A DNA stretch of 64,000 nucleotides from positions 36,127,253 through 36,191,252 of the forward strand of contig CM075939.1 of assembly GCA_038030265.1 (NCBI GenBank), given 5' to 3'. The notes beneath the pieces are model-generated. The model ran no database searches. It was given only the letters and a program-made list of their open reading frames with translations, and was not told where the DNA came from. This stretch comes from Corythucha ciliata (lineage: Eukaryota; Arthropoda; Insecta; Hemiptera; Tingidae). Shown here piece by piece: positions 8,516-59,437 of this stretch (positions within the stretch are counted from its first letter, which is position 1; every line of letters begins with the position of its first letter). Made by a program: the position numbers and the translations under genes.

Positions 8516-9870
8516 CTACGTGGCTGTAGGAAAGTTGCCAGGTGGAGAGTGTACGTGGCGAGTTATTTTGGCGCGTTGGCAAGAAATACACGCTCGTGAC
8601 CACGCTCGGCAATCTTGACGGATTCGAGGCCACACAAAGCGTTGTGAAATGAGCCGGGTAGTTGCTTTGATGCCGGGATGACTCAAATTATGGAGAGAGT
8701 CGAAAATGCGGCGTCGAAGTGGAGTAGGTACGAAGGGTCGAAGAGTTGATGTTGACGTGTCGCAAACAAGAGTAATGTCGGACCCGGGGATGTCAACGTT
8801 TTGGAGGCGAAGGGACGAATCGTTGGTTTTGAGGAGGTCACGAAGTTCATCATCATGATTTTGCGCTTTAGCTAGTGTTGTGAGATCGACAGGGGGAGGA
8901 ATTGCAGCGGTGAGAGAATCGACTCGAGATAGAGTATCGGCGACAATGTTTGCAGCGCCGCTGATGTGTTGAATGTCGGTCGTGAACTGGGAAACAAACG
9001 AGAGCTGGTTAAGTTGTATTGGGGGTATCTTTTCCTTGCGTTGACGAAAGGCGAACGTGAGAGGCTTGTGATCCGTGTAGACAGTGAAAGTTTGGGCTTC
9101 AAGGGTATGACGAAAGTGTTGTATGGCAGCGTAGACGGCATGAAGTTCTCGATGAAAAGCTGGCCACTGCTGTTGGCGTGGAGTCAGTTTTTGGGAGAAA
9201 AATGTGAGGGGCTGCCACTCGTTCACCACGCGTTGTTGAAGACATGCCCCGATGGCAGCTTGAGAGGCATCAGCGAAGAGCCCGAGTTGAGCCTTGGGGT
9301 CAGGATGAGCGAGAATGGTTGCTGTTGCGAGATGTTCTTTGCACGACTGGAAAGCTTGCTCGAGTGCCGGGGTCCAAATTATTGGTTGTTCACCGCGGAG
9401 ACCGGCGAGAGCGGAGTGAAGGGGCGCTTGAAGTTGTGCTGCGGACGGGAAAAAACGACGGTAGAAATTTATTATCCCGAGGAAACGGCGAAGACCTTGG
9501 GCTGTTGTCGGGCGTTTGAAATTTTGAAGCGCCGCGATACGATCGCCTTCCGGGGTGACCTCATATCCCAAGAAAGTGACTTTTGATGAGCCGAGAATGC
9601 ATTTGTTGGCATTGATGAGGAGTCCATGTTCACTCAGACGTTTGAAAACGGCGTGAAGATGCGTTTTATGTTCGTCGGCGTCTCGGGAGAAAATAAGAAT
9701 GTCATCAATATAGGGATAACAAAAGTCGAGGCCTCGGAGGACGTCGTCTATGAACCGTTGAAACGTCTGGGCGGCATTTCGAAGACCAAAGCTCATGTAC
9801 GGGTACTCATAGAGACCGAAAGGCGTTGTGATAGCCGTCTTAGGGACGTCGTTGGGAATTTGGGATTGAC
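8516..9870 (-). pseudogene. Gypsy RT-RNase H-integrase part
   Basis: It continues the polymerase after the frame break. [12 protein letters not shown] and YIDDILIF give the reverse transcriptase palm with its two catalytic aspartates. FADAS and TDHKPL mark the RNase H. HNLSHPGIKATTRL with CISCQRAK gives the HHCC integrase zinc finger. The frame is lost near 8516, and fragments of the integrase core are seen only to about 8470 (GPLP followed by KKG). The DDE catalytic core is missing, so this copy cannot encode integration. Confidence 0.88.
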
Positions 9871-11598
9871 GGGGATTTGATAATACGCCTTGACGAGGTC
9901 CAGGACGGAGAAGATTGTGCATCCTTGGAGATTGTGGGAAAAGTCATGGATATGACGGACAGGGTAACGATCAGGAACGGTCCTGGCGTTTAATGCACGA
10001 TAGTCGCCACAGGGGCGCCACCCAGAACCTTTCTTCGGCACCATGTGAAGTGGTGATGACCAAGGGCTGTCTGATCGTCGAACGATTCCTTGTTGAAGTA
10101 TAAGGTCGAATTCAGCCTTGGCAGGTAGAAGCTTATCGGGAGCAAGTCGTCTAGGGCGTGCGAACACAGGGGGTCCGGGCGTCGTGTTGATGTAATGGAC
10201 AGTAGAATGGTGAACGACGCGAGGAGGGCCCGACGGTAGAGTGAGCTGAGGGTATTGTGCGAGAATGTCGTGAAAAGGGGATGGCTGTAATGATTCAGAG
10301 GACAGCGACTTGACATTCGGTTGATGGGTCAGGTTCGTGATGCAAGTTGCAGCAAGGCCGGTGGTGGCATCGAATAAACGATTGTTGCGACAATCTTGAA
10401 GAAGAGAATAGTGTGCGAGGTAGTCGGTTCCGATAATGGGAATTTGCACGTCGGCGATGACGAAGTTCCAGGAGAAATCCCGACGAAGATTGAAATCCGG
10501 GCGAAGACAAATAGTTCCGTACGTTGAAATGTGCGTATTGTTGGCGGCGAGAAGTTGGAGACCAACGCGATGTCGTTTTCCAGGAAGAAGACGGCGAGGG
10601 AAACAACACAAATCGGAGCCTGTGTCGAGGAGGTACTGGTGCTTGGTGAGGCGATCGAGGATGAACAAGCGGTGGTCGGTCGCCGCTACTGTCGACTGCC
10701 CTGAGAGTTTAACTTTGGATAGGAGCACGGAGGGGTGCATTGCGTGGCACGATTTCCCCAGCGGCGATGGTACCATCATACTCGCGATGGTGAGTCGGAG
10801 GAGGGGCTGTGGGAAGGGGTGGAATGCCTGTGATGAGACCATGGTTGACCGCGCCGATGTTGATAGCGTTCGAGTCAGTGTGGCAAGTTGTTGAGTGACA
10901 GTTTCGAGAAGGCGAGCGATTCCCGGGTCCGTGGGAGTAACCATATCGACAGGGGAAGAGTGACGGTTGAAAGTGGGAAACACGGGTTGGACTTCGACGA
11001 TCTGGTCGGCAATGATGGCTAGGCGGTCGAGTGGAAGGTCTGCCTGTGTTTGAACGATCGCTTGAACGTGTGGAGGTAGGCGTTGCGTCCAGAGTATCCG
11101 CAGCAAATCGTCGTGTACGAGTGTGGATCCTGCGAGGGATCGAAGATGCCGTAAGAATTTTGACGGTTTGAGGTCTCCGAGGTCTTCTTGTGACAGAAGG
11201 CGACGAAGACGTTGTCCGTCCGAGAGCGAAAGGCGTTCGATTAGTGAATTCTTGAGAGTGGTGTAGGGGTTTTGAAGGGGGGGTGTCGTGATGAGATCCT
11301 CGACCTCATTTATATACCGCTCATCGAGTTGAGAAATTAGGTATCTGTATTTCGTCGCTTCTTGGGTGATGCCGGCGAGATCAAATTGAGCATCGACTTG
11401 GGCGAACCAGAGCTGCGGCTTGTCGCTCCAAAACGCGGGGAGTTTTATGGCGACGCGATTGACGAAGATGGGAGCGGCTGCATCGTGGGCAATTCCGGCG
11501 GTTTGTTCAGCGATGTGAGGCAACATGCCTTGAATTTGCTGCCGGAGGTTATTGAGTTGCTCGAGTTGAGCAGCAACGTCGTCAGGAGCTTCTGCCAT
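9793..11598 (-). pseudogene. Gypsy gag-protease-RT N-terminal part
   Basis: 601 codons from an ATG 5 bases after the primer site. Residues 1-300 are a CsRn1-type gag ([20 protein letters not shown], lacking an obvious zinc knuckle). The aspartic protease has its catalytic LLDTGSD at about residue 325 and the partner strand IIGTDYL near 395. The reverse transcriptase starts with [12 protein letters not shown] and reaches [10 protein letters not shown]. The frame is then lost and the last 20 or so residues are out of register. The rest of the polymerase continues in another frame from about 9870 downwards. In an intact element the product is a polyprotein cut by its own protease in virus-like particles. 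Confidence 0.85.
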
Positions 11599-11603
11599 GG
11601 TGT

Positions 11604-11620
11604 TCGGGTCGGGGTCACCA
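11604..11620 (-). promoter_or_regulatory. Retrotransposon primer-binding site, tRNA-Trp type
   Basis: TGGTGACCCCGACCCGA lies immediately upstream of the gag ATG. The first 13 bases match the usual complement of the tRNA-Trp 3' end, which primes minus-strand synthesis in CsRn1-group elements. Confidence 0.75.
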
Positions 11621-11686
11621 ATTGGAGAGATTTTAGGATGTCCTATTTAGATACTTACGATTATTTGTTGTAACGATAAAACCGAA

Positions 11687-12289: not shown

Positions 12290-12928
12290 TGCGTGGGAAA
12301 TCCACCACCAGTTTTTGTAGAGAAATATTCAGAAGAACAGAGTATCGTCAGTTTTGTGGTAAAATAGCCGATTTCTGAGGTTGATAAAATTTGGTTATTG
12401 GGTAAAATCGCCAGTTTTGTAGTGTACTGTGTTTTCGAATTCCCAGAAATTGAATTTTTGAAAATGTCAATACTACAAAACTGCCTTTTTAGCGAGTCAA
12501 TCCCGCGAAATTGAATTTTTCAATGCGCAAAAACCGTGAAATTGTATAATAGTGCTAACTCATTGCAATAAAATATGTGGAATTGTGGATACATCGCCAA
12601 TTAGCTACGAAAATGGAGAAACAGTGGTAATTCACAGCTAAAATTGAAAAACAGCGCAAATTTGCAGCTCATGAAAAAAACGATAACATGCTGCAAAATA
12701 GAAAAAAGTCGCTTATATACGGCTAAAATTTAGAAAAAAACGCTAATTCGTCGCTAAATAGGAATACGTCGCAAATATGTTTCTAAAAAGTATGAAAAGT
12801 GCTAATTCGCGGCTTAAATTGACAAAATCGCTTAGTTCCCTTTCGAAATATATAAAAAGGGCTAAATCAAGGCCAAAACTGAAATTTCATCAGTGGGGGT
12901 CGGTGTGGGTTAAGCCCACCAATTTTAA

Positions 12929-13121
12929 GCTATGTCTCCACTTGTGCGCTTTCGTCTTCCTCTTTCAATTCAACTTTCAACAACGCATGCGTCTAAGCTG
13001 TGCACGCAATTAGTGATTTTCTTCCAGCTATTTGAGGCATGCAATTGTGAATTCCTCACGTTCAACACACCGTGCGCTATGAGGCATGCCTCTGACGCAC
13101 GCGAAGTGGAGACATAGCTTT
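12929..13121. repeat. MITE 'AGCTATGTCTCCACTTGTGC', copy 1
   Basis: AAGCTATGTCTCCACTTGTG and CGAAGTGGAGACATAGCTT are inverted ends of a roughly 190-bp element inside the duplicated block. The second copy is at 14613-14805. GCATGC occurs repeatedly inside. Confidence 0.75.
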
Positions 13122-14612
13122 AGGATGAAATCATCAATTTTGAGGTAAAGGCTTGGGTTTTAAAATCACCAGTTAGGTAGCATAGTGTACTCTGTACTTT
13201 AGAAGTAACACGTCAGTCGGTTTTACAGTAAAATATTCAGTTATAGAGTGAACTCTTCAGTTTTGGGTTAAAAAAACGTCAGTTTTGAGTTGAAAATCGT
13301 TAGTTTTTTACAAGAAATTGATGAAAAGTCGAACAACCAGTATTTGAGTGTGCCAAGCCTTTCCTATACGAGTATCGAATTAGGGGGAAAACATTGTCAG
13401 TTTTGGAGTCAAATATCCAATTTTCGGGAGAAAACGTCGTTTCGGGTGTGAAATATTCATTTCTTGAATAGAGTAGACAAATTTAGTTTTAGGTTAGGTC
13501 AGTTTTGTAGTGAAATCTTCAGTTGTATGTGGACGGGGATAACACGTCAGCTTTAGCGAGAAATCGTACGGTTTTTGGGTAAAATCGCCAGTTTTTGTAG
13601 TGTACTGTGTTTTCGAATTCCCAGAAATTGAATTTTTGAAAATGTCAATACTACAAAACTGCCTTTTTAGCGAGTCAATCCCGCGAAATTGAATTTTTCA
13701 ATGCGCAAAAACCGTGAAATTGTATAATAGTGCTAACTCATTGCAATAAAATATGTGGAATTGTGGATACATCGCCAATTAGCTACGAAAATGGAGAAAC
13801 AGTGGTAATTCACAGCTAAAATTGAAAAACAGCGCAAATTTGCAGCTCATGAAAAAAACGATAACATGCTGCAAAATAGAAAAAAGTCGCTTATATACGG
13901 CTAAAATTTAGAAAAAAAACGCTAATTCGTCGCTAAATAGGAATACGTCGCAAATATGTTTCTAAAAAGTATGAAAAGTGTTATTTCACTGCGAAAATGG
14001 AAGAAATCGCTATTCTGCAGTTTAAATTTGAGAAAAACTGCCCATTCAATGGTAAAATTCACATAACGCCAAATCGTAACATGTAAATACATCGCCAAGT
14101 CGGCGATAAAATGTAAAAAAGGCGCTAATTCACACCTAAAATTGAGACAAAGTCAGCTTTGGCGTGCAATTGTTTGTTTTGCCATAAAATAGTCACATTT
14201 GGGGTGAATTCGTCAGTTTTGTGTTGAAATCGTCGGTTTTCAAGGCAGAGTCGTCCTTTTTGGCCTAAAAACATCCGTTTCAGAGAAAACTTTACTGTGT
14301 GACATTGTCAGTTTTGGAGTCAAATATCCAATTTTCGGGAGAAAACGTCGTTTCGGGTGTGAAATATTCATTTCTTGAATAGAGTAGACAAATTTAGTTT
14401 TAGGTTAGGTCAGTTTTGTAGTGAAATCTTCAGTTGTATGTGGACGGGGATAACACGTCAGCTTTAGCGAGAAATCGTACGGTTTTTGGGTAAAATCGCC
14501 AGTTGAGTGATAAAATAAAATCATCAGTTTTCAATGCAGAATGGTCTGTTGTAGTATGATCATTCGTTTTTTATCAGTGTGGGTCGGTGTGGGTTAAGCC
14601 CACCAATTTTAA

Positions 14613-14805
14613 GCTATGTCTCCACTTGTGCGCTTTCGTCTTCCTCTTTCAATTCAACTTTCAACAACGCATGCGTCTAAGCTGTGCACGCAATTAGTGA
14701 TTTTCTTCCAGCTATTTGAGGCATGCAATTGCGAATTCCTCACGTTCAACACACCGTGCGCTATGAGGCATGCCTCTGACGCACGCGAAGTGGAGACATA
14801 GCTTT
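14613..14805. repeat. MITE 'AGCTATGTCTCCACTTGTGC', copy 2
   Basis: Nearly identical to the element at 12929. It was copied as part of the larger 12890-13405 block rather than by its own transposition, because the identity extends well beyond its ends. Confidence 0.75.
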
Positions 14806-15180
14806 AGGATGAAATCATCAGTTTTGAGGAAAAACCTTGGGTTTTAAAATCACCAGTTAGGTAGCATAGTGTACTCTGTACTTTAGAAGTAACACGTCAG
14901 TCGGTTTTACAGTAAAATATTCAGTTATAGAGTGAACTCTTCAGTTTTGGGTTAAAAAAACGTCAGTTTTGAGTTGAAAATCGTTAGTTTTTTACAAGAA
15001 ATTGATGAAAAGTCGAGCAACCAGTATTTGAGTGTGCCAAGCCTTTCCTATACGAGTATCGAATTAGGGGGAAAACATTGTCAGTTTTTTGACAGAAAAT
15101 TAGGAATAGAAGGCAAAAACCGATAGTTTCCTAACGGAGATGTTAGTTTTGGTGGATTTCGACTCTTTTTGTGAAAATCT

Positions 15181-20959: not shown

Positions 20960-21855
20960 TAATGGGCTATCGGCTCATTTAAGCCCTATAAATCCCCTGG
21001 GCCGGACGGGATATTCCCGGTCATGCTACAGCGTGGCCTGGAGGTCCTGGAGCCGCGTCTCAGAAGGATATTTAGGGCCAGTTATGCATTATCGTATATA
21101 CCGAAGGCATGGAGGGAGGTCAGGGTTGTGTTCATTCCTAAGTCGGGAGCAAACTCCTCGGCCCAGGCAAAGGCGTACCGACCCATAAGCCTCATGTCCT
21201 TCCTCCTTAAAACAATGGAAAAGATAATTGGCCTGGATATCAAGGACGGTTGCCTTAAAATTAAACCAATCCAGAGGGGGCAGCATGCCTACCAGGCGGG
21301 CAAGTCTACTGAGACCGCCCTAAACGAACTGGTGGGTAAGGTTGAGAAATCTCTGGAGGCGAAAGAAACTGCGCTGGGCTGCTTCCTGGACATAGGTGGT
21401 GCTTTTGATAACACCACCTATGACTCTATGGAGGCTGCAGTAAGGAGCAGAGGTGTTGATCCATCTTCAGTGAAATGGATCAAGGGGATGCTGGAATGCC
21501 GCGTCGTGACTTCGGAGCTGGGAGGGGAGACTGTTTCCGTGTGCCCTCAAGGGGGTGTCCCCAGGGGGGTGTGCTCTCTCCTTTGCTCTGGTTGCTCGTG
21601 GTGGACGAGCTTCTCGCTATCCTAAAGGAGCAGGGTTATGAGGTAGTTGGTTACGCGGATGACCTTGCGATTCTAGTTAGGGGCAAATTTGATGATACCA
21701 TATCCAGTAGGATGCAGGGTGCCCTTAACATAGTGCAGCGATTGTGCAGCAGGCATGGTCTCAGGGTTAACCCTGAGAAGACCACCCTTGTTGCGTTTAC
21801 CAGGCGGAGGAAGCTGGCATTAAAGGTAGTTCGACTGAATGGAGAAGTGTTGCCC
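20960..21855 (+). pseudogene. Jockey-like LINE reverse transcriptase fragment
   Basis: The frame reads through fingers (SFKPYKSPGPDGIFP), PKAWREVRVVFIPKSG, AYRPISL, GQHAYQAGKSTETAL, GCFLDIGGAFDNT (palm motif A), then CPQGGV. A shift near 21560 moves it to the frame with SPLLWLLVVDEL and YADDLAIL (catalytic motif C), then VNPEKTTLVAF. No endonuclease domain precedes it and no 3' tail follows; both ends are cut. The motif style suggests the I/jockey/R1 group of non-LTR retrotransposons, but the exact clade is not certain. Confidence 0.88.
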
Positions 21856-24040: not shown

Positions 24041-24216
24041 CGTCACCGTGGCGCAATAGGCAGCGTGCTGGACTAGTAATCCAGAGGTTGTGGGTTCAAA
24101 TCCCGCCGGCGTGCCCATTTTTTCTCGAAACTCGAATCGTGTTGGGCTATGCCCTTCCATCGTCGTCCGGAAAAATATCACTTTCATTTAATCTTACTAT
24201 ACTTATTTTTATTTAA
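24041..24216 (+). mobile_element. tRNA-derived SINE, copy 1 (tRNA-Thr-like head)
   Basis: The head folds as a tRNA. D arm: GCGC/GCGT with A-box TGGCGCAATAGG. Anticodon stem: CTGGA/TCCAG with loop CTAGTAA (anticodon AGT, Thr). T arm: GTGGG/CCCGC with loop TTCAAAT, the B-box. The acceptor stem pairs poorly, so this is not a working tRNA. A shared tail, CCCATTTTTTCTCGAAACTC, then GTGTTGGGCTATGCC and GTCGTCCGGA, recurs in two other copies. Confidence 0.75.
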
Positions 24217-25119: not shown

Positions 25120-25243
25120 TAATTAACTGATGTCCGGACGACTCGGGAAGGCAAAGCCTAACACAATTCGAGCTTCGAGAAAAAATGGGCTCCCAGGCGG
25201 GGTTTGAACCCGTAACCTCTGGAATGCTAGTCTGGTGACGCCC
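25120..25243 (-). mobile_element. tRNA-derived SINE, copy 2 (minus strand)
   Basis: Read on the minus strand it has TTCCAGAGGTTACGGGTTC, the B-box GGGTTCAAACCCC, CCCATTTTTTCTCGAAGCTC, GTGTTAGGCTTTGCCTTCCC and GTCGTCCGGA, ending in TTAATTAA-like sequence. This is the same tail as copies 1 and 3. It lies head to head with copy 3. Confidence 0.75.
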
Positions 25244-25307: not shown

Positions 25308-25412
25308 ATCGGTTACGGGTTCAAATCCCGCCGGTGAGCCCATTTTTTCTCGAAGCTCGAATTGTGTTAGACTTTGCCTTCCCGAGTCGTCCGGATATCA
25401 GTTAATTAATTT
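25308..25412 (+). mobile_element. tRNA-derived SINE, copy 3 (5' truncated)
   Basis: It starts at the T arm (GGTTACGGGTTCAAATCCC) and carries the full shared tail to GTCGTCCGGATATCAGTTAA. With copy 2 it forms an inverted pair with about 100-base arms and a 65-base spacer, so transcripts across it would fold into a long hairpin. Confidence 0.75.
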
Positions 25413-38693: not shown

Positions 38694-40389
38694 TTATTGG
38701 TTTTCAGCCACTTTGTGACATTCTATATCTTTCGGTTTCCCCTGGAAATTTTTCGTCAACTCAATTATCCGCTGAGCCTCGCGAAGCCCCGAAGCTCTGG
38801 CACCCTGTAATGTTCCGTGTAAACCGACCGCCGTCGCTTCACCGGCGAATAAAATGGTCGGCGTTTCACCGGCACACGGGTCGGGCTCGGGGCGCATCAA
38901 CTCGCATTGATCAGTCGCCGTTGACTCTACACTGAAATAACTTCGAGCGCCGACAAAATAGGGTGACTCGGCCCACTGGGATTTTATGACGTTCACCGGG
39001 TAGGGTAGGGTGGGATCTTTGAGGAAACGACGGAAAACTCGAGTGAGATCTTCAGCGATGGTGATGTCGGTCAGACTTTCAACGCATTTAGCGAGTTCAC
39101 CACCGACTGTTACACGGAGGACTTGCTGACTGAATGGTACTTCGCGAATGGAGCCGATGGCGTGAGTCCATTCGTCTTTTTTCATGTACAGGTCGTGATT
39201 CCAAGCCAGTGATATACCACCCTCCTTCCACAACCAAAACGGTCGTTCATATTCGAGGTAAATGTGTGTAATGTAACCGTAGCCCATCCTTTTAATCGCG
39301 TCAATTTTAGTTGGTGAAAGTTTCGGTTCAAACATTGACGCTTGTTTTGCTTTCAACACGCCTAATGAGCACGTAACAATCGCATAGTCCCCGCAAATGA
39401 TGTCTCCGTCGCAACAAAATACCTGAAAATTCATCAAATCAGATAAAGTGATTGTTCTATGTGCTTTGGCTGTACTTTGACTCTCGGAGAAATACGCTCT
39501 GAACTGTACAGAATCCTCCCAGCCGGCTTACAGTAGCGTATGTTGTCACAACGGGGCATGGAAGTGAGCAAAGGTGCCAGAATTTGTACCAGACCCGTCG
39601 AAAAGGATATACACTGCGAATAGTTCAACGGCTCGATCACTTTCGCGCCAAACATGCAGGCTGATACTTTTGGAAGGTCAGCACCGAGTCTCGAAGCGAG
39701 ATCTATCTTTTTAGACACCATTGTGCGAGCGGCTAGAGCTCTCAAATGACTGGGAAATTGCCGGATTTCTTGTTTGATTCTCGAGCATATGAAGTCGCAG
39801 AGATTACCGCAATTCACGCCAGGACCACAATTAGAGTATAGGTCGGCTGCCTATAATTTAAATTAATTTTAAAAATAGCCCCCCCCCCATCCATTTTAAT
39901 AATCACGAATCAACAAACCTGTTTAAGAATGATGTTGAAACACTCATCAGCTGCCATTTTAATATCGACGGGCACAATCTCACCCTCGTTGGTAAACGCC
40001 AGTGTTTTTGAGTCGCTCAGTTTGGCTGTCGGCCTGCTAAAAAGCTCCTGTTGAGCCGCCAGTCCCGTGATACAATTTCCCATCGAAGAACCCTCTACGA
40101 ATGGAGCTCCAATTTCTGCGACCGTCTCACCCAACCAACAGCTGTGCACACGGCCTCCTGGCCTGTTATGAACAAGCTTATCGTTACTGCTAAAACTATG
40201 ACACCATGATGGATGGTGGGGGGGGCGGTGAAAGGAAAACCTGTCAGTGGCTTCCAAAATTGTAACGTCGGTGATACCGGCTGAAATAAGGTGTTGGGCG
40301 GCGGAAAGACCGGCTAAACCGGCTCCAATTATTACGACAGACGGCGATTCCCAGCATGGATTTATCGTGGATTCATCAACCAAACATGA
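38694..40389 (-). CDS. SMOX: Spermine/polyamine oxidase-like flavoprotein, four exons
   Basis: Exons are 40389-40241, 40162-39919, 39850-39476 and 39422-38694, joined in consistent phase through GT-AG introns of 78, 68 and 53 bp. They give about 498 residues, close to the usual length. The N-terminal FAD fold is seen in VVIIGAGLAGLSAA, LEATDR and, only after removing the 78-bp intron, PGGRVHSCW. CGDYAIVTCSLGVLK, KRMGYGYITHIYLEYERPFW and SQWAESPYFVGARSY lie in the middle, and LFAGEAT near the C-terminus is the second FAD-contact motif. Such enzymes oxidise spermine to spermidine, 3-aminopropanal and peroxide. No break is seen, so it is probably functional. The first coding exon is upstream: the visible sequence starts after an acceptor at 40390 without an ATG. 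Acetylpolyamine oxidase is an alternative identity. Confidence 0.87.
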
Positions 40390-43219
40390 CTGTCAATGAA
40401 TGAAAAATAGTTTCTCGCTTTCATAAATCATGAGGGCGAGGTTTGACGGTTTAATAAAGACCTCAAGTTTCGCGTCTTTTCGGCATTTTAAATACTTTTT
40501 CATTTCAGGAGTCAGGTCGCATATTTCATTCGGTACTTGCAAGAAATTTGACGTTGTCAGCCATCTTGAAAACAGTGGGAAATGAAAATTATAACTCATT
40601 TAACGAAGTAAGCGTGACTTTGGGCGTACCTCCTGGCTAGAAATCGGAGACCAGTTGAAGTTAACATCTTTGTCTATTTTCTACACCAACTCTCGACTAA
40701 AAAATATACTTTCACTGAAAATTTTGAACTATTTTCCTTGCTAAAATATGATAAATCTAAATTATGGTCATCTGAATTCATTTTGAAGCGTCGTAATTAT
40801 TGAAGGACACCGCCCAAATTATACGCTTATTAGATAAAATCAACTTTTTTTGGTAATAGACCGACAATTTTTAAGGATGTTTTACCAGTTTTCAGTGAGG
40901 CGGGATGACACTTGTAGTCTGAGTTTAAGAGCACTGGCCGATAAGATTACTTGGGGGAAATTCGTGGCGTTAGTGTCCGGTCGAGGGGTGGAATAAAAAT
41001 GGTTTATCGAGATTTTCCATTCGCAACCCACCGAGAGTTGAGAATTCATCTTGTCTCTTCCGTAGTGGCTGAATCCGCCTAACACTGACTCTCGTGTAAT
41101 GTGACCATGTTCAAAAGTTCTAAAGAAACGATCTGGGAATTCCTCGCTTTGATTCGGTAAAGGAAAATTGGTCATTTCCGCTTTTTATCTCAATTTGTAT
41201 CGCCTTTTTCTATTGGGGAAATAAAATGTTTTGTTTTTGTGAGAACCCAATGCATATTTTTTTGTTATTCATCCTCTCCTTCAATCCTTTGTATGATGCT
41301 CATTGTTGAAATGTCTTTTAGTTAAGCGTGAAGCTCACCATTATTCGTCTTTACAGGGGTCAGTTCATCAGTTGTACATATTTTATCTTCTGATCCCTTA
41401 TCCCATGCTCAATGTTCGAATTTCGGGCAAATATCGAACCCATTATGTCTGACTCTAAAGGAAATGTACTAATCACTCAAATTACCAAATTATTTTCATT
41501 TCAAAGCTGCATTTAGGGGGAAGTTTCCACGTGAACAACTTTTGAACTCAAATAAGTTTAATTCAAAATCAGTGTGTTTTGTAAAATTAGTGTGTAGGAA
41601 GCACTGTATGTCCTTTCCCACGTGTGCATGATGAAAACATTCCACCCTTTAAATGCTAATTTCAAGGAGGGTTTTCTCCTTTCAATTCTAACTCCCTCCC
41701 TCTTCGGCCTGTCCATCGATTCAATCTCACCTTTCCTCTTCGCGTAACAATTCTCGAAGCTCTCGTATAATTACAAGGGTCTTCTGGATGCCGTTCGAGC
41801 ATTTCATCGCATATCGTCTTTCTCCAAGTTGGAAGAAGAGGGGGGGGGGATGAAAACCTCAAAGGAGGGCCAACACCTTTTCATCTGTGGGGCAAATCCA
41901 TTCTCTTAATTCAGTTGGATCTTTAATTATGTCTCTCGATCTAGAAATCAGAGAATGGTTCGGGATAAAATAACGTATGCTCCTTCTCCACATAAAGTTC
42001 CTCTTTTTACACAAAAACGCAAAGCTCGTAGTATTATGTCGTAGGTGTTCCTGTACGCGTGATTAGTGTATAAATAGGTAACAATGACAATCGGTCTTTC
42101 TAAACAATGGAAATCCATAGTTACCTAACTAAAATGAAGGCCGAATCCAGATGGTCATGGAAGCCGGTGGTAACATCATCTCATTGCAAAAAACATGGCA
42201 CCTACCAAACTCGTGTGACATTGCACTTGTGCAAGAAAGGTGTTGGTGGTATAAAATTATACATGACTGTCCGAATATAAGTGTGTCATTCTCTCCTTTT
42301 TTGGGCTTATACCTTCAGACCTCTCTGCCTGTTCTCGTTGGCATCGGCCGAGCCGGATCCCTCTGACTTGATTTGCCGGGTAGGCTGGCTCGTCAGCTAG
42401 TATTCGTATTGCAGTCTTTACTCCTGGGGAGCGGTCCACGAGAAAAAAGAAGAAAGGTTGGAGGGGGGCCTTATCTACGCTTACATCAAATATCAACCCT
42501 TCCCCCCTCCAACAATTTGAAATGCTACTCGATTTCAGCCAGCCACTCTAAAGAGATTTGTAACGCGACCTCTCATTGGCTGGATTGTATTACAAACGTC
42601 CAAACGTCTCACCAAAGCTGCTCATAGAAATTCCTCCAACTCAAAGTGAACTTCAGGTCAAATTAGAATTTTACCTTACGAAAAGCCCAGTATCTTATTT
42701 TTTTTTTTTTTTTTTTTTTTTTCCATATCGTCAACTACAGGGTGTTTCAGGATGAATGATCAGGATTTTAAATAGTTGTCCCAACTAGGACAAACCAAAA
42801 TCGTCAGGATCGCAAATGCTTGGTTTCCTAGTTACATTTTTTTTTTTGTCATTTCTCGGCCAAACGCGTTCTTTTCGTCAATAAGCATTTTCATTGTCCT
42901 AGCCATTCGGAGCAAAACAATACAGATTACATTTCTGAAAAAAAGCACAACATTTTCGGTCAAGAAATGCTAGTTGTAACTTGCTGATCTCATGTTTCAC
43001 TATTTTCTTTTATTCGTTGAAAAAGTGTTAATTTGATTTTCATCGTTTCTTTCAAACTCATCAATCTTCCTCAGTCATCGTGTTCAAAATTTTGTAAATT
43101 CAAATTGAGCCATATTTTCACCAAACATAAAAAGTAAAAACAGCTTTTGGCACTATAACTTTGAATATGCTCACGATAAACAAAATACCTACCTCATGCA
43201 GCGGCGGGTTTACAGGGTG
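40390..43219. other. Upstream of the oxidase; first exon not resolved
   Basis: A minus-strand ATGGCTGAC near 40568 could begin the missing first exon, but no donor in the right phase is convincing. A 97-codon minus frame at 40882-41175 has no recognisable domain. A poly-T run at 42697-42722 precedes CAGGGTGTTTCAGGATGAAT, a terminus of the kind common on arthropod repeats. Confidence 0.45.
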
Positions 43220-47480: not shown

Positions 47481-47699
47481 TTACTGGCGAAGTCAGAAAT
47501 CCAGGCATTGTGAGAAATGCCTAGGAATTGTTAACAGTGCCTGGTGAAATCAGGCAATGTGGGAAAAGGAGGTGAAAGAATTATTATTTCCCACTTTGCC
47601 TAGGAATTGTGCACATTACCTATCGCTGAGCAGGCATTGTGCACAATGCTCAACAGCACTGCCGGCAATGTGAGAATCAGCTTGTTTTCTGGGAGTAAT
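47481..47699. repeat. Cluster of CAGGCATTGTGCACAATGC-like palindromes
   Basis: At least six variants of AGGCATTGTG and GCACAATGC, some joined as palindromes, occur within 200 bases. The same words occur near 20330-20390 and 22360-22540. Confidence 0.5.
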
Positions 47700-47942
47700 A
47701 ATAATTAGTTAGCGCCGGGTTTCGAACCCGGCAGGCGCCAAAGCCTCCTTTGGGCTCATACGCCGTACCCTGATCCAACTGTGCACTTCACACCCGTACT
47801 ACGCGGGCGTTTCGGTCGGTGCGCGGTTTGTTGAACCCACAGCGCCGGGAACGCCCACACGAAGCCGAGTGTGCCGTGTCACAGTTCGCCGCTGCCCGCT
47901 GGGCCCGCTGCGAGTATTGTATCCATTACACCACCGAGGTGC
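47700..47942 (-). mobile_element. Possible dimeric tRNA-like SINE
   Basis: On the minus strand a GGTGGTGTAATGGATAC A-box-like stretch is followed by a B-box-like GTGGGTTCAACA. A second tRNA-like head then appears, with anticodon stem GAGCC/GGCTT around CAAAGGA and a perfect T arm CCGGG-TTCGAAA-CCCGG. The acceptor stems do not pair well, so these are not functional tRNA genes. It ends exactly where the next transposon begins. Confidence 0.45.
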
Positions 47943-47961
47943 AATAGCATTAATAAGGGAC

Positions 47962-49215
47962 GTCCTAATTTGCGGAAAATCAGTAATGCTTGCGGACACG
48001 ACATGAAAAATTATCCGAGGACGCTGAAAAAGCACACAGATCCTACTTGCACTGATCTCAAGAATATTTGTCCACAGTTACTCCGAGTTACCGAAAAATA
48101 CTAGTACTTCTCCTCTAAGAGTCATTTGCGGAAACGATAAAAGCTTGCGGAAACGATATGCACAAAATTTTGAGGACGCTCAAACCACTCACAGTTACTT
48201 CTGACATAAATTGGAAAAATATTTGCTGACAGTAATCTCGGATAACCAAAAATTACTAGTACTTCTTCCCGAAGAGTCATTTGCGGAAACGATAAAAGCT
48301 TGCGGAAACGTTATGTAAAAGAGTTGGAGGACGCTCAAACCACTCACAGTTTTTTGTGACATAATTTGGAAGAATATTTGCCGATAGTTATCTCAAGTAA
48401 CCGAAAAATACTAGTACTTCTCCTCGAAGAGTCATTTGCGGAAACGATAAAAGCTTGCGGAAACATTATGTAAAAAAGTTGGAGAACGCTCAAACCACTC
48501 ACAGTTACTTCTGATACAGTTTGAAAGAATATTTTCTGACAGTAATCTCGGATAACCAGAAAGTACTAGTACTTCTCCCCGAAGAGTCATTTGCGAAAAC
48601 GATAAAAGCTTGCGGAAACGATATGCACAAAATTTTGAGGACGCTCAAACCACTCACAGTTACTTCTGATATAATTTGGAAGAATATTTGCTGACAGTAA
48701 TCTCGGATAACCAAAAAGTACTAGTACTTCTTCCCGAAGAGTCATTTGCGGAAACGATAAAAGCTTGCGGAAACGTTATGTAAAAGAGTTGGAGGACGCT
48801 CAAACCACTCACAGTTTTTTGTGACATAATTTGGAAGAATATTTGCCGATAGTTATCTCAAGTAACCGAAAAGTACTAGTACTTCTCCTCGAAGAGTCAT
48901 TTGCGGAAACGATAAAAGCTTGCGGAAACGTTATGTAAAAAAGTTGGAGAACGCTCAAACCACTCACAGTTACTTCTGATACAGTTTGAAAGAATATTTT
49001 CTGACAGTAATCTCGGATAACCGAAAAATACTAGTACTTCTTCCCGTAGAGTTATTTGCGGAATCGATAAAAGCTTGCGGAAACGATATGTAAAAAAAAA
49101 TGTAGGACGCTCAAACCACTTACAGTTACTTCTGACATAGTTTGGCTGATTATTTGCTGACAATTATCTCGGGTAACCAAAAAGTACTAGTTCTTTCCCC
49201 GAGGAGTCGCTTGAA
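47962..49215 (+). repeat. 155-bp satellite with 465-bp higher-order period
   Basis: Unit starts (GTCATTTGCGGAAACGATAA or variant) are at 47962, 48121, 48276, 48431, 48586, 48741, 48896, 49051 and 49206. Spacing is 155 after the first. Units come in three types, and the triplet 48121-48585 is repeated almost exactly at 48586-49050. Each unit holds the palindrome AGTACTAGTACT. Confidence 0.9.
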
Positions 49216-49222
49216 AGAACGA

Positions 49223-49987
49223 CAAAAGCGATACGATTCCCGATCATGACGTTATATTCTTCCCTATTGTAAGCAATGATCACTGAGTAGTCGTGGTACA
49301 AAGATTTAAGACTATAGTGTACTTGGACAGTTTGGGGAGCTCAAAGGGACAGTGTGCAATCCGAAAGGTTCTGAAAATATTAGCAACGTACTACGCGTTG
49401 CGTGGGATTAAGCTAGGTACGGACACGTACAGAATTGTTGCGCCCTCCGACTTGCCCCAACAAAATAATAATTACGACTGTGGAATCTACGTAATTAAGT
49501 TTGCTGAATATGTTCTTACGCAACCCATAGGTATCACTGGATACGTCTGCAATTAACTTATCTCGTCACGAGATTCATGACAAAATTTTGGAGTACTTCA
49601 AGCCTGGCTACTCAGTTCCACCGCCTTACAAATTTCAGTTCGATGGCCGTGGACTAGAGAGTCTACCTCTACCACCAGATTTTGACGTAACCGTCTCACG
49701 GACATTCCAAAACTCAGCGATAACTACGCTCGACGTCCTACGTCTCACGATAAATGAAAGCTGGGGAAAAGACAAAATATTTTAAATGCAAAGAAGAAAG
49801 TTGTTTGATAGTAGACGGAACTGGTACGTGGATAACGTGCAAGGGATGTGGAAGTAGCTTCCACGCGCAATGCGTTTCTGACAGAGGTAATCATAGTGGA
49901 ATTTTTACCTGTGCCCAGTGCAACATCGCCCCCAAGAAAAGAACACAGAGCCAGAAAACCCGCCCTTATTATATGTATAAAACCTAG
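49223..49987 (+). pseudogene. Ulp1-type cysteine protease plus PHD finger, broken
   Basis: The protease part reads VIFFPIVSNDH, where His is the catalytic His. An in-frame TGA then stands where Trp is normally found. It is followed by VYLDSLG (catalytic Asp), then QQNNNYDCGIYVIKFAE with the catalytic Cys. This is the C-terminal half of the C48/Ulp1 fold. The frame then shifts near 49556 to a linker (YFKPGYSVPPPYKF). It shifts again near 49770 to a C4HC3 PHD finger: KCKEESC, CKGC, FHAQC and CAQC at 49780-49921. It was once a single protein with domains in that order. Ulp1 enzymes cut SUMO-like modifiers; PHD fingers read histone tails. The nonsense change and two shifts make it inactive. Confidence 0.82.
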
Positions 49988-50640
49988 AATAATCTGGCAA
50001 ATGAAAAAAAAAAAAAAAAAAAAAAATCAGTGAACAGAGTCGATAAGTTTCACGAGATACAATTTAGTTTTGTACACCGTCTGACGATTTTAATTAATTT
50101 CGTATAATTCGTAATACACCCGTTAACAAACAGGATAATAATATGCAATCTGGTTTCTTTAATTTTCATAACGTTTTGCAAATAAAAAAAATGAATTAAA
50201 AAAAAAAAAACTGGAAAAAAATAAATAAATAAATAAAAAACTGGAAGAAATATACAAAAATTGAAAAAAATAAAAAACTGAAAAATAAATAAATAAAAAT
50301 ACAGCATATAACCCAAAAAATGAATAAATATTTCGCTAAGTAGGCTTACATTTAATTTTCCGGTTCACACATACATAATCATTATAACAGTACAATAAAT
50401 TATTCATGTTGTTTTCCATAACGATTGAACCATATTAAAAAACGGAGAAAAAAAATAGCTGAAAAAATAGAAATACCCTTGAAAAGGGTTGTATTTAGCA
50501 TCAAATTTGATTGTAATACTTTAAAATTGAGCTAGAACGATAATTATACAAGATTTAGTAAGTATATAAGAAACATTTTCGATAACTCACTTTTCCTATT
50601 GTATTACCTAGCTCTACACCCCCAAAATAAGATAAACCAA
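49988..50640. other. A-rich interior of the transposon
   Basis: A run of about 24 A at 50004-50027 follows the PHD stop within 20 bases, like a captured poly(A) tail. AAATAAAT-type low complexity occurs at 50200-50330. Confidence 0.5.
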
Positions 50641-50971
50641 ATACTACTAGTACTAGTACTTTTTGGTTACCCGAGATTACTGTCAGCAAATATTCTTCCA
50701 AACTGTGTCAAAGGTAACTGTGAGTGGTTTGAGCGTTCTCCAACGTTTTTACATAACGTTTCCGCAAGCTTTCATCGTTTCCGCAAATGACTCTTCGGGG
50801 AGAAGTACTAGTACTTTTCGGTAACTCTGGGTAACTGTTGACAAATGTTCTTGAGATCATTGCTAGTAGGAACTGTGAGATTTTTCAGCGTCCTCGGATC
50901 ATGTTATATGTCGATTCCGCAAGCATTACTGATTTTCCGCAAATTAGATCCTCCCCATTAATAATGCTATT
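50641..50971 (-). repeat. Right terminal inverted repeat with about two 155-bp units
   Basis: Inverted relative to the left array, ending in CCGCAAGCATTACTGATTTT followed by ATTAATAATGCTATT. Unit content equals the outermost left units. Confidence 0.85.
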
Positions 50972-52579
50972 AATTTATTTATTACTATTAATTAATTAGT
51001 GAGATGGGAGGTAAAATCCAAGACTCCAATTGTATAAGGAGTTTACCAAAAATTCATTACTGACCCAAAACGAGACAGTTAATCATCACGCTTTCCCGTC
51101 ATGGAAGAGCGTACGCAAATGTCTTACTGGTGGGGTGGGGGAAAATCCGGCTACCACGTGGCATTGATTTAGATGGCCAACTTGACGACATAGAACACAC
51201 AATAGCATCCCAAACATACCAAAGAACAAGGGGTGGTGAATCTTGGACACCTCACTTCTATCGTGTAGAAACAGTGGCTTAGCTTGTTGAAAATGCCCCC
51301 CTCCCTGGGCCAAGCCAGCCTTTGACGCCCCTTCGTCTCATGACAGTTCAAGCTTACAAACAAATGAGAAGGGAGATTTTGACGTTTTTTGATGGAATTC
51401 CTCATCACATATTTTAACGTGCAACGCTACGTGGAAACATTGGAATCAGGAGAAATATATGATGTTCTCATTTATTAGTACCGGTTTCGGCTGACTTCAG
51501 CCATTTTCAACTGTATAAAACCAAATCGAAAAATTAAAAAACAAATACATTAATAAATACAACCAGAACAGCAGAACCGTGCCTAACCACCCCTTAGAGG
51601 GGAACTTACGGTGTAATAAATTGCAAATTAGACGACCCTTGTCTTAGGACTTTTCAAGAGATTACGCCCCCCTCACCGCCGGTTACGGTATTACGGTGTA
51701 ATAAGTAATAGAAGATACGATAGAGATTAAAAACTGTCTTCTTGATCCGCGAACTAGATGTTGCGAGGGGAAATGTACACTGTAACATTTTTTTTCGCAC
51801 TCCATGCCCCGTAAGTAGCCAATTACTGTACTATTCCAGGACAGAAAAGTCCAGGACTTTACCATACTCAGTCTGGTAAAGTTACTTTACCATACTCAGT
51901 CTGGTAAAGTTACTTTACCAGACTCAAGACTGAGTACGGTAAGTGAAAACCCTTGAAAATCCTTTTCACATTTTTCATGGATTTGGAAAAAAGTGAAATC
52001 TAGAAAAAATGAGTTAGGTCCCAATGTTTTACTCTTAAATTTGGGATTTAAATGCCCCCCCTCCCACTATTCAATCAGAGCAATCAATGATCAGCAATCC
52101 CTCACTGATTAAAATGATTCTTCTGAGCAGTTATTTGCGGTTTGCGATTGTTCACTATGAAAATATTTGAAATTGAATGAACCGTGCATATATGTAAAAT
52201 AAATCCGCGAGACCGAAAATATCGTTTTTAAAAAGAAAAAAAAGTTTATTAATGAAACACAACTGAACGTAACTTCACGATAACAACTACTGAGCAAAAG
52301 GTCGAGCTCTCGGAGGCTTCTTATACAAGTAACCCGTGCTGCTTGTCTGTTAGTTTTTTGCAAGGAGAGAGGAGGGTGGAGGATAAAGAGTTTTATTTTG
52401 AACTGTTATTATATTTCATCGGGTAAGGGGTTTACTGGATATAAGTTATACACCATCAATTCACTAAATAATCTTTGACGTAAAGAAACCCCCACTCAAA
52501 ATCTTTAAAAATTCCCTTTAAAAGAAAATCCTTGACAGATTTCAATGTTTATAGTGAGGAAGAGCCCTCTTCTAGAAAC
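50972..52579. other. Intronic spacer with a small palindromic tandem
   Basis: At 51857-51912 a 28-base palindromic unit (CTTTACCATACTCAGTCTGG) is repeated twice, with a third rearranged copy up to 51936. ACCGGTTTCGGCTGACTTCA near 51480 is a word I associate with arthropod interspersed repeats. No gene. Confidence 0.5.
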
Positions 52580-54139: not shown

Positions 54140-54544
54140 AAAAATAATATAATTGTTGACCAAGAGTTCCCTTGAGTTTTATTTCAATCCATTTCGTTGT
54201 CGCATCAACCAGGATAAACCAATTTTTCCTTCAAATGGTCCAGCAAAATCGACATGTACCCGTGACCACGTTTCCTCGGGGACGTTCCATGAGTGAAGAG
54301 GCACCTCTACATCCTTCGATTTATTCCTTTGATAAGAAAAACATTTTTTGACGAAAATTTCGGAGTGTTTATCTATGTTTGGCCACCAGCAATATAACTG
54401 AGCAAGTGATCTCATCGCTCCAATCCCTGGGTGCCCCTCATGGAGCATATGAAGAAATTCATTTCTTAGATCTTTTCGCCCTTTCCAGAGCAAAATCCCC
54501 TCTTCGATGGATAGTTCATCCCTTTTCTCATAGTATGTGTTCAT
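54140..54544 (-). pseudogene. Gypsy integrase N-terminal part
   Basis: GHPGIGAMRSLAQLYCWWP with CFSYQRNK gives the zinc finger, and HVDFAGPF has the first catalytic Asp. One shift near 54210 moves to a frame with VDATTKWIEI. The sequence then leaves the element. Confidence 0.8.
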
Positions 54545-54750
54545 ACTCTGGCTTATATATTTTTTTTCTGGTCAGCCACATTCGAGCGATCTGCAAACTG
54601 AACTGAGCTCTTCGTCAGACCAAATTTTTTTCTTTAACCGACTTTTTGTGACAGGAAATTCGTCTAACTTGATGTGTAATAGTCGCCCGCAATCTTCCCC
54701 AGATGATGTACCCAAGCTACTGTCTGCAATGGGGAGTCTCGACAATGCAC

Positions 54751-56140
54751 TCAACGGTATATTGATATGAGCTCAAAGACAGAGCCCAGTGAGACAAACG
54801 GTTGGCAGCAACAATTCTCCCCAAGAATTCGAAGTAAAGGTCGATGATCTGTTCGGAGAATAAAACGTCTACCAAAGATGTATTGATGAAACTTGGAAAC
54901 TGCGAAGATCAGCGCTAAAGCTTCGCGGTCAATCGACGAGTAACGTGACTCACTTTTGTTAAAAATTCGTGATGCGAAAGCTATTGGTCTTTCGCTTCCG
55001 TCCGGATACCTATTTGCTAAAACCGCGCCCATTCCAGCTTCACTTGCGTCAGCCGAAAGGACCAGGGGTAAATCCTCCTTATAATGAACCAGTGTTTGCG
55101 GAGAACACAGTTTTTCCTTCAGCTCGTTGAAGGTCTTTTCATGGGTGTTAGACCACTTCCAACGGATTCCTTTGCGACACAAGGCATGTAGCTCGTAGCA
55201 CTCAGGTTGTAAATTCGGTAAGAACTTACCGTAAAAGTTGATAGCGCCCGAAAATGATTTCAATTTTGTCACATTGGTGGGAGATGGCATATCCTTGATG
55301 GCTTTTACGTGATCTTCCGTTGGGTGAATACCTTCTTGGTCAAGCCGATGACCCAAATATACTATTGAGTCCTGGAGCCACTTACATTTTTCTGGTTTGA
55401 CTTTTAGTCCACTTCCTTTTAATCTCCTTAAAACTTCTCGTAGACTGGTCATATGTTCCGCCGAGGTTTTCCCTGTTATAATTATGTCATCGATAAAACA
55501 CGAAACGTTATCTATGCCAGCCAAAATGCTATCCATAGTCTTTTGGAACAGAGATGGTGCGAAATTAACCCCGAACGGAAGACGTCTGTACCTGAAAAAC
55601 CCTTTGGATGTGGAAATTACCAAATACTGACGGGACCGTTCCTCTACTTCCATCTGAAGGTACGCGTCTTTCAAATCTATGATCGAAAATTGTTTCCCAC
55701 CTCGTAGTTTGTCACGAATTTCGTCAAATCTGGGATTGGGATGATGGTCCTGAGCAATCACCGGATTTATTGTTACTTTAAAGTCAGCACATAATCTGAC
55801 ACGACCATCGGGTTTCAAAACTACGACGAGAGGAGATGCCCATTCTATCAGAAACTGAGTTGTATCAATCTGTTCAATAACACCTTCTTTGAGTAACCGT
55901 TCCAACTCTAGCTCCACCTTGTCCCTCAAGGCGAAAGGAACCGGCCTTGGTTTGAAAAGTTTCGGTACGGCCCCTTCTTTGATATGAACGATGGCCTTAT
56001 GTCCTTTGATTGTACAAAGTCCTGGACTAAAAATTTCTTTGTGGTCGTCTAGAATGGATTGTAATTTGAGAGTGTTGTCGTTTTCTGACCTCTTTACGTT
56101 TCAAATTCTAGCTCCAGGAGGTAGGGGCAATTGGAATTTT
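54751..56140 (-). pseudogene. Gypsy reverse transcriptase and RNase H
   Basis: Open for 392 codons from 55929 (LKEGVIEQIDTTQF) with an upstream linker up to the protease. Motifs: SPLVVVLKPDGRVRLCADFK, FSIIDLKDAYLQ, LPFGVNFAPSLFQ and FIDDIIITG (catalytic pair), then the tether, SADASEAGMGAV and LRTDHRPLL of RNase H. The frame shifts near 54830, and ALSRLP of the RNase H end is found at 54740-54755. Confidence 0.87.
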
Positions 56141-57300: not shown

Positions 57301-58309
57301 CTCGTTCGCCAATATAAAGACACACAAGAACCGAACAAGTAGAATGTTTATCATTATATAAAGATGATGAGAACTCATCTGTTGTTTTTAGTATTGAAGG
57401 TTCAATATCATTACATTTCCCAGTCGAGTAGTCCGTTCGCAGGCTGAAGAGCTGGTCCAGGTTGGAGAGGTGTTCACCGTTCGACTTCTTGACAAAAAGT
57501 GATTTCTCGGGTCCCGCTGCGCTGCTTATACATATAGTCGATGGGTGGTTTCCGCCCATTTCAGTGGGTTGACCGGTGGTTGGTTCCTTTTCCCCCACTC
57601 GGAGGCATCTGTGGATGACTTTTTTTGTTGTGTAGGGATCCCTTGGAATTTTTCCCTAGGGGTTGGCGATTCGCTGTATTTTTTCTTCGTGGGGTTTTTT
57701 GCCCGACGTCAAATGATTTTGGGCGTCATTATCGGGTTGGGATATTGGCGTTTCTTGAGTTGTCAGATTTATCACGCTCGAGAGCCATTCCGGCCCACAT
57801 ATCATGCTTAAATCAACGTGGGAATTTTATGGTCATTCAAGCCACACCTATAACCACTGATAGGACAAAATTATTTGCAAGCTTCAGATCGCGTTTTGGA
57901 GCGTTCTGAATGGGTCTATGTTGAGAGATCGGCATTTCTATGGAGTGTCCGATATCACACTCTCTAAATGTTTTGGCCAGCTGGGAAAGATTATGCCCTA
58001 TTTTCACCAGACCATACCATTTATGAGAAAAAAAATTTTCTGATTCCGAGCTTCAAGCACAATCACCATAATTATTCTCCTAGTACGACAGATGTTAGTG
58101 AATAATGCTACTGATGTTGTGTTCTCCTCCAAATTTTCAAAGTTCGAGAGTTATCTGGGCAGATACCTAACTGTAGTTCTCTGAATATTCGGCTGACTTC
58201 TCCTTGCTTGCACCAAGCTCAAATAACTTTATTTTGTCACGAAAAGGATAATTGTAGGCCATACATTTTAACCTTGCTCGATTTTTCTTATAATACTGTG
58301 ATTTTTCAG
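57301..58309 (+). other. 3' end of the dpr-like intron
   Basis: The first few hundred bases may contain the 5' LTR of the minus-strand gypsy copy, but no second LTR exists to confirm it. The stretch ends in TTATAATACTGTGATTTTTCAG, with a plausible branch point and acceptor. Confidence 0.5.
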
Positions 58310-58523
58310 GTTTCATGGCTGCGACGCCTGGGAGACTCACTCATACTCGTCTCAGTCGGCAAAGAAATGTACAGCAGCGATCAGCGCTTCACGTCGACCT
58401 ACATGTCGGCTCAGGACTGGCGCCTGCATATCGACGGCGTTAACGTCACAGATCAGGGTCACTACGAGTGTCAAATCTCGTCCCATCCACCGGTTGTTCA
58501 CTCGGTGTACATTCACGTTTTAG
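58310..58523 (+). CDS. dpr: dpr-like Ig receptor, exon with second half of Ig domain 1
   Basis: Phase 0 start at VSWLRR, with the Ig core Trp. Then DSLILVSVGKEMYSSDQRF, DWRLHIDGVNVTDQGHYECQ and SVYIHVL. The words SDQRF, DWxLxI and the D-x-G-x-YECQ second-cysteine motif are the family signature of dpr proteins. It ends in phase 1 before GTAAAA. An N-glycosylation site, NVT, is present. Confidence 0.9.
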
Positions 58524-59437
58524 GTAAAAGATAGTTTTTAATAATTTCACGCCCGGGCCCTTCTTATTTTCATTTAGAGCCACTTTTCCGAGAATAACTG
58601 TTTTATCGTCCTAATTGTGTTAAAATTTAATTCTGCTTCTGAAATTGATCATTTTCTTTTACATTAACAAAGATAGAGGGGTTTGCTGGTCCTGAAGAAG
58701 GGAGGGGGGTCATCATCCTCGGCTAACCTGTTAACCTTCATTCTCTCAATCAAGCCTCTGACAGCATAAGTTGGAGCGTTTTTGGTGAACCTTCACCTGT
58801 TCACCTATAGAGCACGAAACCGGTGGCCTCTAAAATATTACTGCGGGCATAGTGAAGATTACAAGTTATGTAAACTGACGTTATATTCGAATAGTCTGCC
58901 CAGGGATAGCCTGCCTGCTGGGGGGAGGGGAAACTCTCGTAAAGTGTTTCTTTACCTATAGAGTTTTGCCTTTCTATATACGAAGCAAATGCGGTGATCG
59001 GTGGTGTGGAGCTGCGAAGTGGTTGCACGGTGCGCAACCCCTAAGGGTGTACTTTACGGAGTAGTAAAAGGTTGGAGAAGATAAAGACGATTGGAGTGAG
59101 AGTTTACAGGGAAAGTTCAACATGTTTCTCGATGAATTTAGATTACGGTTGAAGGGGGCGGGATTATATTATTCGGGAGACCAAGGGAAATTCTGGTTAA
59201 ATGTTAGTAAGTTCAGACTGCGTTTTCCAGGATTTTCGTCGGTGGGTCAACAAGCCTGGCGACCACACAGGCCCCTTTCTCGTATAGTCATGTTTATCTA
59301 CTCTTATAAAGCCTTTATTTACTTAGTTTATACACTTGATCAATGCCCTTAGTAATGATATTTCCGCAATTCAATCCATTCCCCGAACTTTCCTTTTAAA
59401 ACGCTGACATCTTAAACGTGCTTCCTTTCTGTTTCAG
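58524..59437 (+). other. Intron, 914 bp
   Basis: GTAAAA donor and TTTCTGTTTCAG acceptor. No repeat or gene recognised inside. Confidence 0.7.

Follow-up and report, generated by a model that had tools for sequence, protein, structure and literature searches.

A very probable internally deleted Mutator-superfamily transposon with satellite-built inverted ends and a transposase-derived Ulp1-PHD remnant in Corythucha ciliata

The window, the whole 64,000-nucleotide stretch of Corythucha ciliata DNA analysed here, contains an element of 2,999 bp (47957-50955) flanked by 9-bp target duplications, its limits being given by the direct repeat CATTAATAA, found as the same 9-mer at the left (47948-47956) and right (50956-50964) borders. 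The left terminal inverted repeat (47957-49237, plus strand) is made up of the tip GGGACGTCC, a terminal unit, seven inner 155-bp units and a degenerate ninth, with the right terminal inverted repeat (50649-50955, minus strand) containing two 155-bp units and the tip GGGAGGATC. The arms 47957-48263 and 50649-50955 are inverted relative to each other and 88% complementary over 307 nt. The preliminary description had placed the borders at 47943 and 50971, limits that enclose the element together with the outer flanks of a palindromic target. The empty target site of the window is a perfect 21-bp palindrome AATAGCATTAATAATGCTATT (47943-47956 joined to 50965-50971), and palindromes with arms of at least 9 were found five times in approximately 61 kb as against none or one in each of five local shuffles. 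A palindromic target was considered as a trait of the family and rejected because the sites of other copies are not palindromic, the best mean of five offsets over 13 sites reaching 3.1 of 10 pairs where the background is 2.6 (SE 0.39), with the window site alone scoring 10 in the same comparison. Adjoining the insertion site, a tRNA-like A-box and B-box about 200 bp apart can be made out by eye on the minus strand (47713-47946), with an Rfam search over 47600-51100, which covers this stretch, giving no match at E ≤ 1.

Tandem 155-bp units make up the left arm (TRF score 1664, 7.4 copies), with eight unit starts mapped at 47970-49055 and a degenerate ninth at 49210. Nine units had previously been claimed for one arm, of which eight hold and the ninth is a remnant only; the broader claim of long inverted ends with one arm amplified into a satellite is confirmed by the 307-nt arms and the 155-bp array. 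A 31-mer from the unit, allowing up to 3 mismatches, occurs eight times in the window versus zero times in each of 100 shuffles, and the motif TTGCGGA, which is doubled in most units, was counted 15 times in the left arm, four times in the right arm (reverse strand) and five times in the rest of the 64 kb. The two terminal units share 88% identity, as against 64-70% between them and the inner units. Within the left array a block of three units has been tandemly duplicated (units L2-L4 and L5-L7; 48125-49054, plus strand), the paired units, at 96.8, 99.4 and 95.5% identity, being closer to each other than are the terminal units.

The interior carries a decayed gene on the plus strand. A Ulp1 (Peptidase_C48) fragment lies at 49215-49553 (PF02902, profile positions 82-185 of 217, E 8e-15), its coding sequence starting where the array stops and its N-terminal part lost at the array junction. 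The closest solved structures by sequence are SENP2, SENP1 and Ulp1, and alignment by eye indicates that the fragment keeps the His, Asp, Gln and Cys of the SENP catalytic site, although the codon immediately following the catalytic-type His is an in-frame stop. Alignment to the open frame of a longer genomic copy (L031, see below) shows the C-terminus continuing after a frameshift at 49537-49776 and then in a third frame at 49757-49987, where a PHD-type C4HC3 finger and the end of the gene, with stop codon TAG, are found; by eye the C4HC3 ligands are kept, but the finger scores 22.8 bits, below the Pfam cut-off of 24. No DDE domain was detected in the three interior reading frames scanned, such that the earlier account of a decayed Ulp1-PHD gene with no visible DDE transposase is borne out. 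In the protein database, the 246-aa read-through of the gene gave 0 confirmed matches among 117 candidates and a longer X-padded query 0 among 473, while searches of viral_contigs gave no match and 22 stretches of genome_contigs fitted a pattern with none confirmed.

The copy search covered a 400.9-Mb assembly of 57 contigs, in which the terminal repeat gave at least 194 matches, many of them units inside one array, and in keeping with the preliminary description the inverted ends are common to other copies. Sixteen copies were sampled, the window and 15 loci with opposed ends, leaving out 14 places with one listed end, of which the copy at 57.9 Mb of contig C5 was examined separately. Both tips were found by motif in 14 of the 16 loci, the second tip not being found by motif at L039 and L045, and opposite-orientation unit matches on two sides were present at all 16 loci mapped. 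Among the 14 two-tip copies the 9-bp duplication was perfect at the same offset in eight, had one mismatch in three and two mismatches in one, with none at L034 and L038; by way of control, random pairs of 9-mers from the window are identical 1 time in 20,000. The two tips of a copy differ in 13 of the 14, a GGGACGTCC-type tip standing opposite GGGAGGATC or GGGAAGATC (single-base variants included). Array length differs among copies, and the interiors of L034 and L036 are approximately 96% identical to that of the window.

A full-length copy of the family was found on contig C5 (57886398-57893682, 7,285 bp) with 155-bp arrays at both ends, the tips GAGACGTCC and GGGAAGATC and the duplication CTTTTCAGT on both sides. 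It matches, in pieces and with frameshifts, residues 10-1030 of a related 1,032-aa transposase encoded at L058. Of the readings offered in the preliminary description the best, loss of the core of a larger DNA transposon by deletion, is borne out by this longer copy with the same ends. Both window-family copies with transposase sequence (that at C5:57.9 Mb and one at C5:29.4 Mb, the latter by coordinates only) have frameshifts or stops. In a copy of 8.6 kb (L031) an open frame of 405 aa codes for Ulp1 (E 7.5e-23) and ends in a PHD-like stretch (18.8 bits, under the cut-off); this copy keeps part of the N-terminus, with no match to residues 101-503, the DDE part. The short copies take up the Ulp1 frame at residue 155 or 158 of the L031 open frame, 21-37 nt from the end of the array, a junction counted in 18 entries among the 45 loci L001-L045, equivalent to 11 genomic places by genome ranges. 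A single ancestral internal deletion followed by multiplication of its product would best explain the common junction.

A genome search with the L031 protein gave 104 matches, several in long frames. The L058 open frame of 1,032 aa contains CG-1, MULE DDE, a SWIM-like motif, Ulp1 and a weak PHD finger, while at L051 (923 aa read of a 1,040-aa open frame) a MULE region, a SWIM-like motif, Ulp1 and a PHD-type finger lie in one polypeptide; the L060 frame (754 aa) stops within Ulp1. The MULE family PF10551 (cut-off 27.6) was above cut-off in L058 (28.1) and L060 (33.0), both with C48 in the same frame, and under it in L047 (24.8) and L051 (15.5), with the catalytic D, D and E conserved in every aligned row covering them. 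PHD (cut-off 24) was above cut-off in L051 (24.1) and below in L058 (18.9), the L047 and L060 frames ending before it. The SWIM-like motif has the form CxC...CHH in L051 and L058; no match to Pfam SWIM reached its cut-off in the proteins scanned, and the matches listed at E ≤ 1 for L047, L051, L058 and L060 included no integrase family. Pairwise identity between transposase lineages is 32-60%. The element at L058 (C5:56952409-56959294) has a perfect duplication GTCGGAATA and that at its sister L059 (C1:54992810-55002556) has GGCTTAACA on both sides, both elements having inverted 155-bp arrays on either side of the open transposase frame.

Outside the genome, a search with the L058 protein found 21 proteins among 7,996 candidates scored, with relatives in Cyamophila willieti (P0005), Apolygus lucorum (P0006), Allacma fusca (P0019) and, weakly, Batillaria attramentaria (P0021). 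In one outside protein (P0007) MULE, Ulp1 and PHD are each above cut-off. A MULE-Ulp1 protein (P0009) is assigned to the metagenome bin of a bacterial symbiont (Candidatus Thiodiazotropha taylori), perhaps through contamination from its animal host.

The preliminary description regarded the Ulp1-PHD gene as cargo, possibly captured from the host, and a non-autonomous transposon carrying a host gene would be in keeping with the lack of transposase in the window copy taken alone and with the reported tendency of MULEs to pick up host gene fragments (PMC6446971). This notion of cargo has to be given up, as MULE, Ulp1 and PHD occur in one open frame of L058 and the Ulp1-PHD part is thus the C-terminal part of a MULE transposase; with Ulp1 in frame with the MULE region in L051, L058 and L060, PHD as well in L051 and L058, and the same three domains joined in P0007, host capture is highly improbable. 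A 5′-truncated processed retrocopy of a Ulp1-PHD mRNA lying between the inverted repeats might be suspected from the missing 5′ part and from a run of 23 A (50004-50026) that starts 16 nt past the stop codon. However, T runs of 18 or more are present at four further places in the window, the stretches compared contain no flanking direct repeat of more than 6 bp and the gene is in frame with the transposase in full-length copies, with the junction common to 11 places and the full-length copy together refuting such an origin, which we regard as having almost no probability. Ulp1 and, in one family (Ginger1-9_HM), PHD are also listed at the C-terminus of Ginger1 transposases (PMC2836005), but Ginger1 elements are described as making 4-bp CCGG/CCGT duplications and starting with TGTNR (PMC2836005) in contrast to the 9 bp and GGGA tips here, and their core is described as a Gypsy-type integrase as opposed to the MULE core seen here. 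Assignment to Ginger1 is accordingly exceedingly improbable.

The window element is very probably an internally deleted, non-autonomous member of the MULEs (Mutator superfamily), cut-and-paste transposons, and most like Rehavkus. The family has the MULE DDE (L058 and L060; absent from the window copy) and the long inverted repeats of the group, and its 9-bp duplications, perfect also in the C5, L058 and L059 elements, fall within the 8-11 bp of MULEs. Rehavkus is counted as MULE-like, its reported features being 9-bp duplications, a PHD finger and a minisatellite that precedes the 3′ inverted repeat (PMC6446971), with 164-bp satellite units in the inverted termini of Rehavkus-1_TC (PMC6446971; PMC10218199), and very few elements are reported for the group, in Repbase only (PMC6446971). 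The elements described here share the 9-bp duplications, a DDE grouped with MULEs, a PHD finger (above cut-off in L051) and a satellite array at the inverted terminus, and differ in having Ulp1, SWIM-like and CG-1 matches, which the excerpted descriptions of Rehavkus do not mention. Their anatomy best matches Rehavkus, a MULE relative, the likeness being one of description rather than sequence, and on the same footing it is doubtful that the transposon is undescribed, as had been proposed. Ulp1 has been reported in Mutator transposons, including MULEs from hydra, lancelet and plants, and, according to a figure legend, Ginger1 and Mutator transposases have been aligned over Ulp1 and PHD (PMC2836005); the excerpted description of these MULEs makes no mention of satellite-array ends (PMC2836005).

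Tandem-repeat-built long inverted ends, 8-10-bp duplications and defective copies are also described for Tetris of Drosophila virilis and Tm1 of Meloidogyne (PMC4079207; PMC3169594), with units of approximately 220 bp in Tetris and 14 bp in Tm1 as opposed to 155 bp here; no autonomous copy of Tetris was reported found (PMC4079207), and Tm1 is attributed to a FLYWCH-MULE transposase (PMC3169594). A foldback-type MULE of the Phantom or Tm1 kind in place of Rehavkus would fit the mostly 9-bp (8-10-bp) duplications and repeat-built ends of Tm1 (PMC3169594), together with the 8-10-bp duplications, ends of 18-613 bp and, in aphids, minisatellite given for Phantom (PMC6446971, Table 1). Yet the Tm1 paper has 0 occurrences of Ulp1 or PHD and describes Phantom with a FLYWCH finger (PMC3169594), and it is Rehavkus for which a PHD finger and, in Rehavkus-1_TC, 164-bp units in the inverted termini are described. 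FLYWCH is absent from the families listed for the N-terminus here (CG-1, with WRKY in 4 of 10), although for Phantom SWIM or the lack of a finger is given as well (PMC6446971, Table 1). Placement with Phantom or Tm1 is unlikely, if the most credible of the alternatives to Rehavkus.

A full element of this Rehavkus-like family would encode one long transposase with a CG-1-like DNA-binding domain, a MULE DDE core, a SWIM-like motif, a Ulp1 (SUMO-type) protease and a PHD finger. The transposase of full-length copies may bind the repeated motifs of the arrays through its N-terminal domain, cut at the GGGA tips and join to the target with a 9-bp stagger, which would generate the duplication, and deleted copies would then be mobilised in trans by it. 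For Galileo it has been proposed that additional binding sites in repeat-built ends increase transposition (cited in PMC4079207), and for the Ulp1 and OTU domains of transposons a role in repair has been suggested (PMC2836005). Here de-SUMOylation by Ulp1 and chromatin reading by PHD may play a part in target choice, at the target site or during repair, and the arrays presumably lengthen and shorten by unequal exchange. The internal deletion explains the puzzling Ulp1-PHD cargo, with a deleted transposase tail able to multiply with satellite-like ends, and full-length references become available for the Rehavkus-type group, including two copies of the same lineage (on C5 and C1) with 1,032-aa open frames.

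CG-1 is the DNA-binding domain of CAMTA transcription factors. The N-terminus of L058 matches CG-1 (PF03859) at 39.5 bits (cut-off 23.5; E 5e-10) over profile positions 3-114 of 116, and a CG-1 match at the N-terminus of a MULE transposase is possibly new. CG-1 was found at E ≤ 0.1 in nine of ten transposase N-termini scanned (L081:239-649, P0002, P0004, P0005, P0007, P0009, P0010, P0014, P0017 and P0018), some of which had been chosen for an earlier CG-1 match, with WRKY matches in four of the ten overlapping CG-1 in some. When 14 outside proteins were scanned whole, CG-1 was above cut-off in one (P0018), below in four and absent from the listing in nine, several of which lack the N-terminus. 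A WRKY/NAC/WOPR-like fold is predicted for the N-terminal domain. Against the PDB, a profile of this domain gave ten matches, all weak and nine to WRKY chains (E 0.02-0.6), and a single N-terminus gave none; Foldseek with the domain gave none at E ≤ 0.001, and no CAMTA- or CG-1-named chain was among the listed matches of the PDB-profile and structure searches. In the 7,285-bp C5 copy a second piece in the opposite orientation matches residues 10-100 of L058. Both long copies contain a diverged second N-terminus piece that runs opposite to the transposase gene (L076:1197-1478, plus strand; L031:2801-3054, minus strand), and the opposite-strand piece might represent a second, divergently read gene with a CG-1-like domain, the CG-1 match of L031 being 17.4 bits and so under the cut-off.

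In what is possibly a new pattern, arrays next to divergent transposases repeat every 144-165 bp or approximately twice that, with most unit sequences looking unrelated. Periods of 144 (L069), 156-158 (L075, L084 and L085), 156 (L062) and 163 bp (L087) were measured, together with 145, 165 and 310 bp at L086 and, in the L068 lineage, 165-bp arrays that by coordinates are inverted on both sides of the gene. Longer periods were seen at L060 (318), at L066, L067 and L071 (282-284) and, by autocorrelation only, at L051 (255-306). When 21 pairs of units were compared, 19 fell within the range of 100 shuffles and two exceeded all: the window and L058 units (52 versus a shuffle maximum of 27), which share AGTACTAGTACTTCTC and a doubled TTGCsGAA core, and, marginally, the L068 and L069 units (24 versus 22). 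This is suggestive of a period kept while the unit sequence changes in the loci examined beside transposase genes. Against a strict period rule, or inverted arrays in every lineage, stand the longer periods, the stretches examined at L052, L063, L072, L082, L083 and L088, in which no array was found, and L060, where no inverted partner array was found near the gene.

Taken further, these observations raise the tentative and on balance somewhat doubtful idea of a MULE lineage whose transposase has five parts (CG-1, DDE, SWIM-like, Ulp1 and PHD), in which CG-1 would read the terminal motifs and share ancestry with the CAMTA domain in a WRKY/NAC/WOPR-like fold group, and in which the satellite ends would keep a nucleosome-scale period (144-165 bp or approximately twice that) across lineages with mostly unrelated units, as if spacing and not sequence were selected. 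Selected array spacing would fit a transposase equipped with a SUMO protease and a chromatin reader. Should the CG-1 link hold, the CAMTA DNA-binding domain would be tied to MULE transposases. The array period would connect, in a way open to testing, transposon ends with nucleosome spacing and the origin of satellite DNA.

Elsewhere in the window, retroelement regions with reverse transcriptase, RNase H and integrase zinc-binding domains, which we take to be Gypsy-like, lie on the minus strand at 8516-11646 and 54179-56100, with a further region on the plus strand (20963-21622) containing reverse transcriptase only. At 12610-14991 the same two tandem-repeat units recur approximately 1.2 and 1.7 kb apart, which suggests a duplication, and at 51856-51926 a 28-bp unit, present two and a half times, makes long near-perfect palindromes. 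A tRNA-Thr gene (24042-24117) has stretches of 84-85% similarity, one in each orientation, about 1 kb away at 25133-25232 and 25311-25395. Exons of a flavin amine oxidase were found on the minus strand at 38694-40392, and exons of an immunoglobulin V-set gene on the plus strand at 58115-58534.
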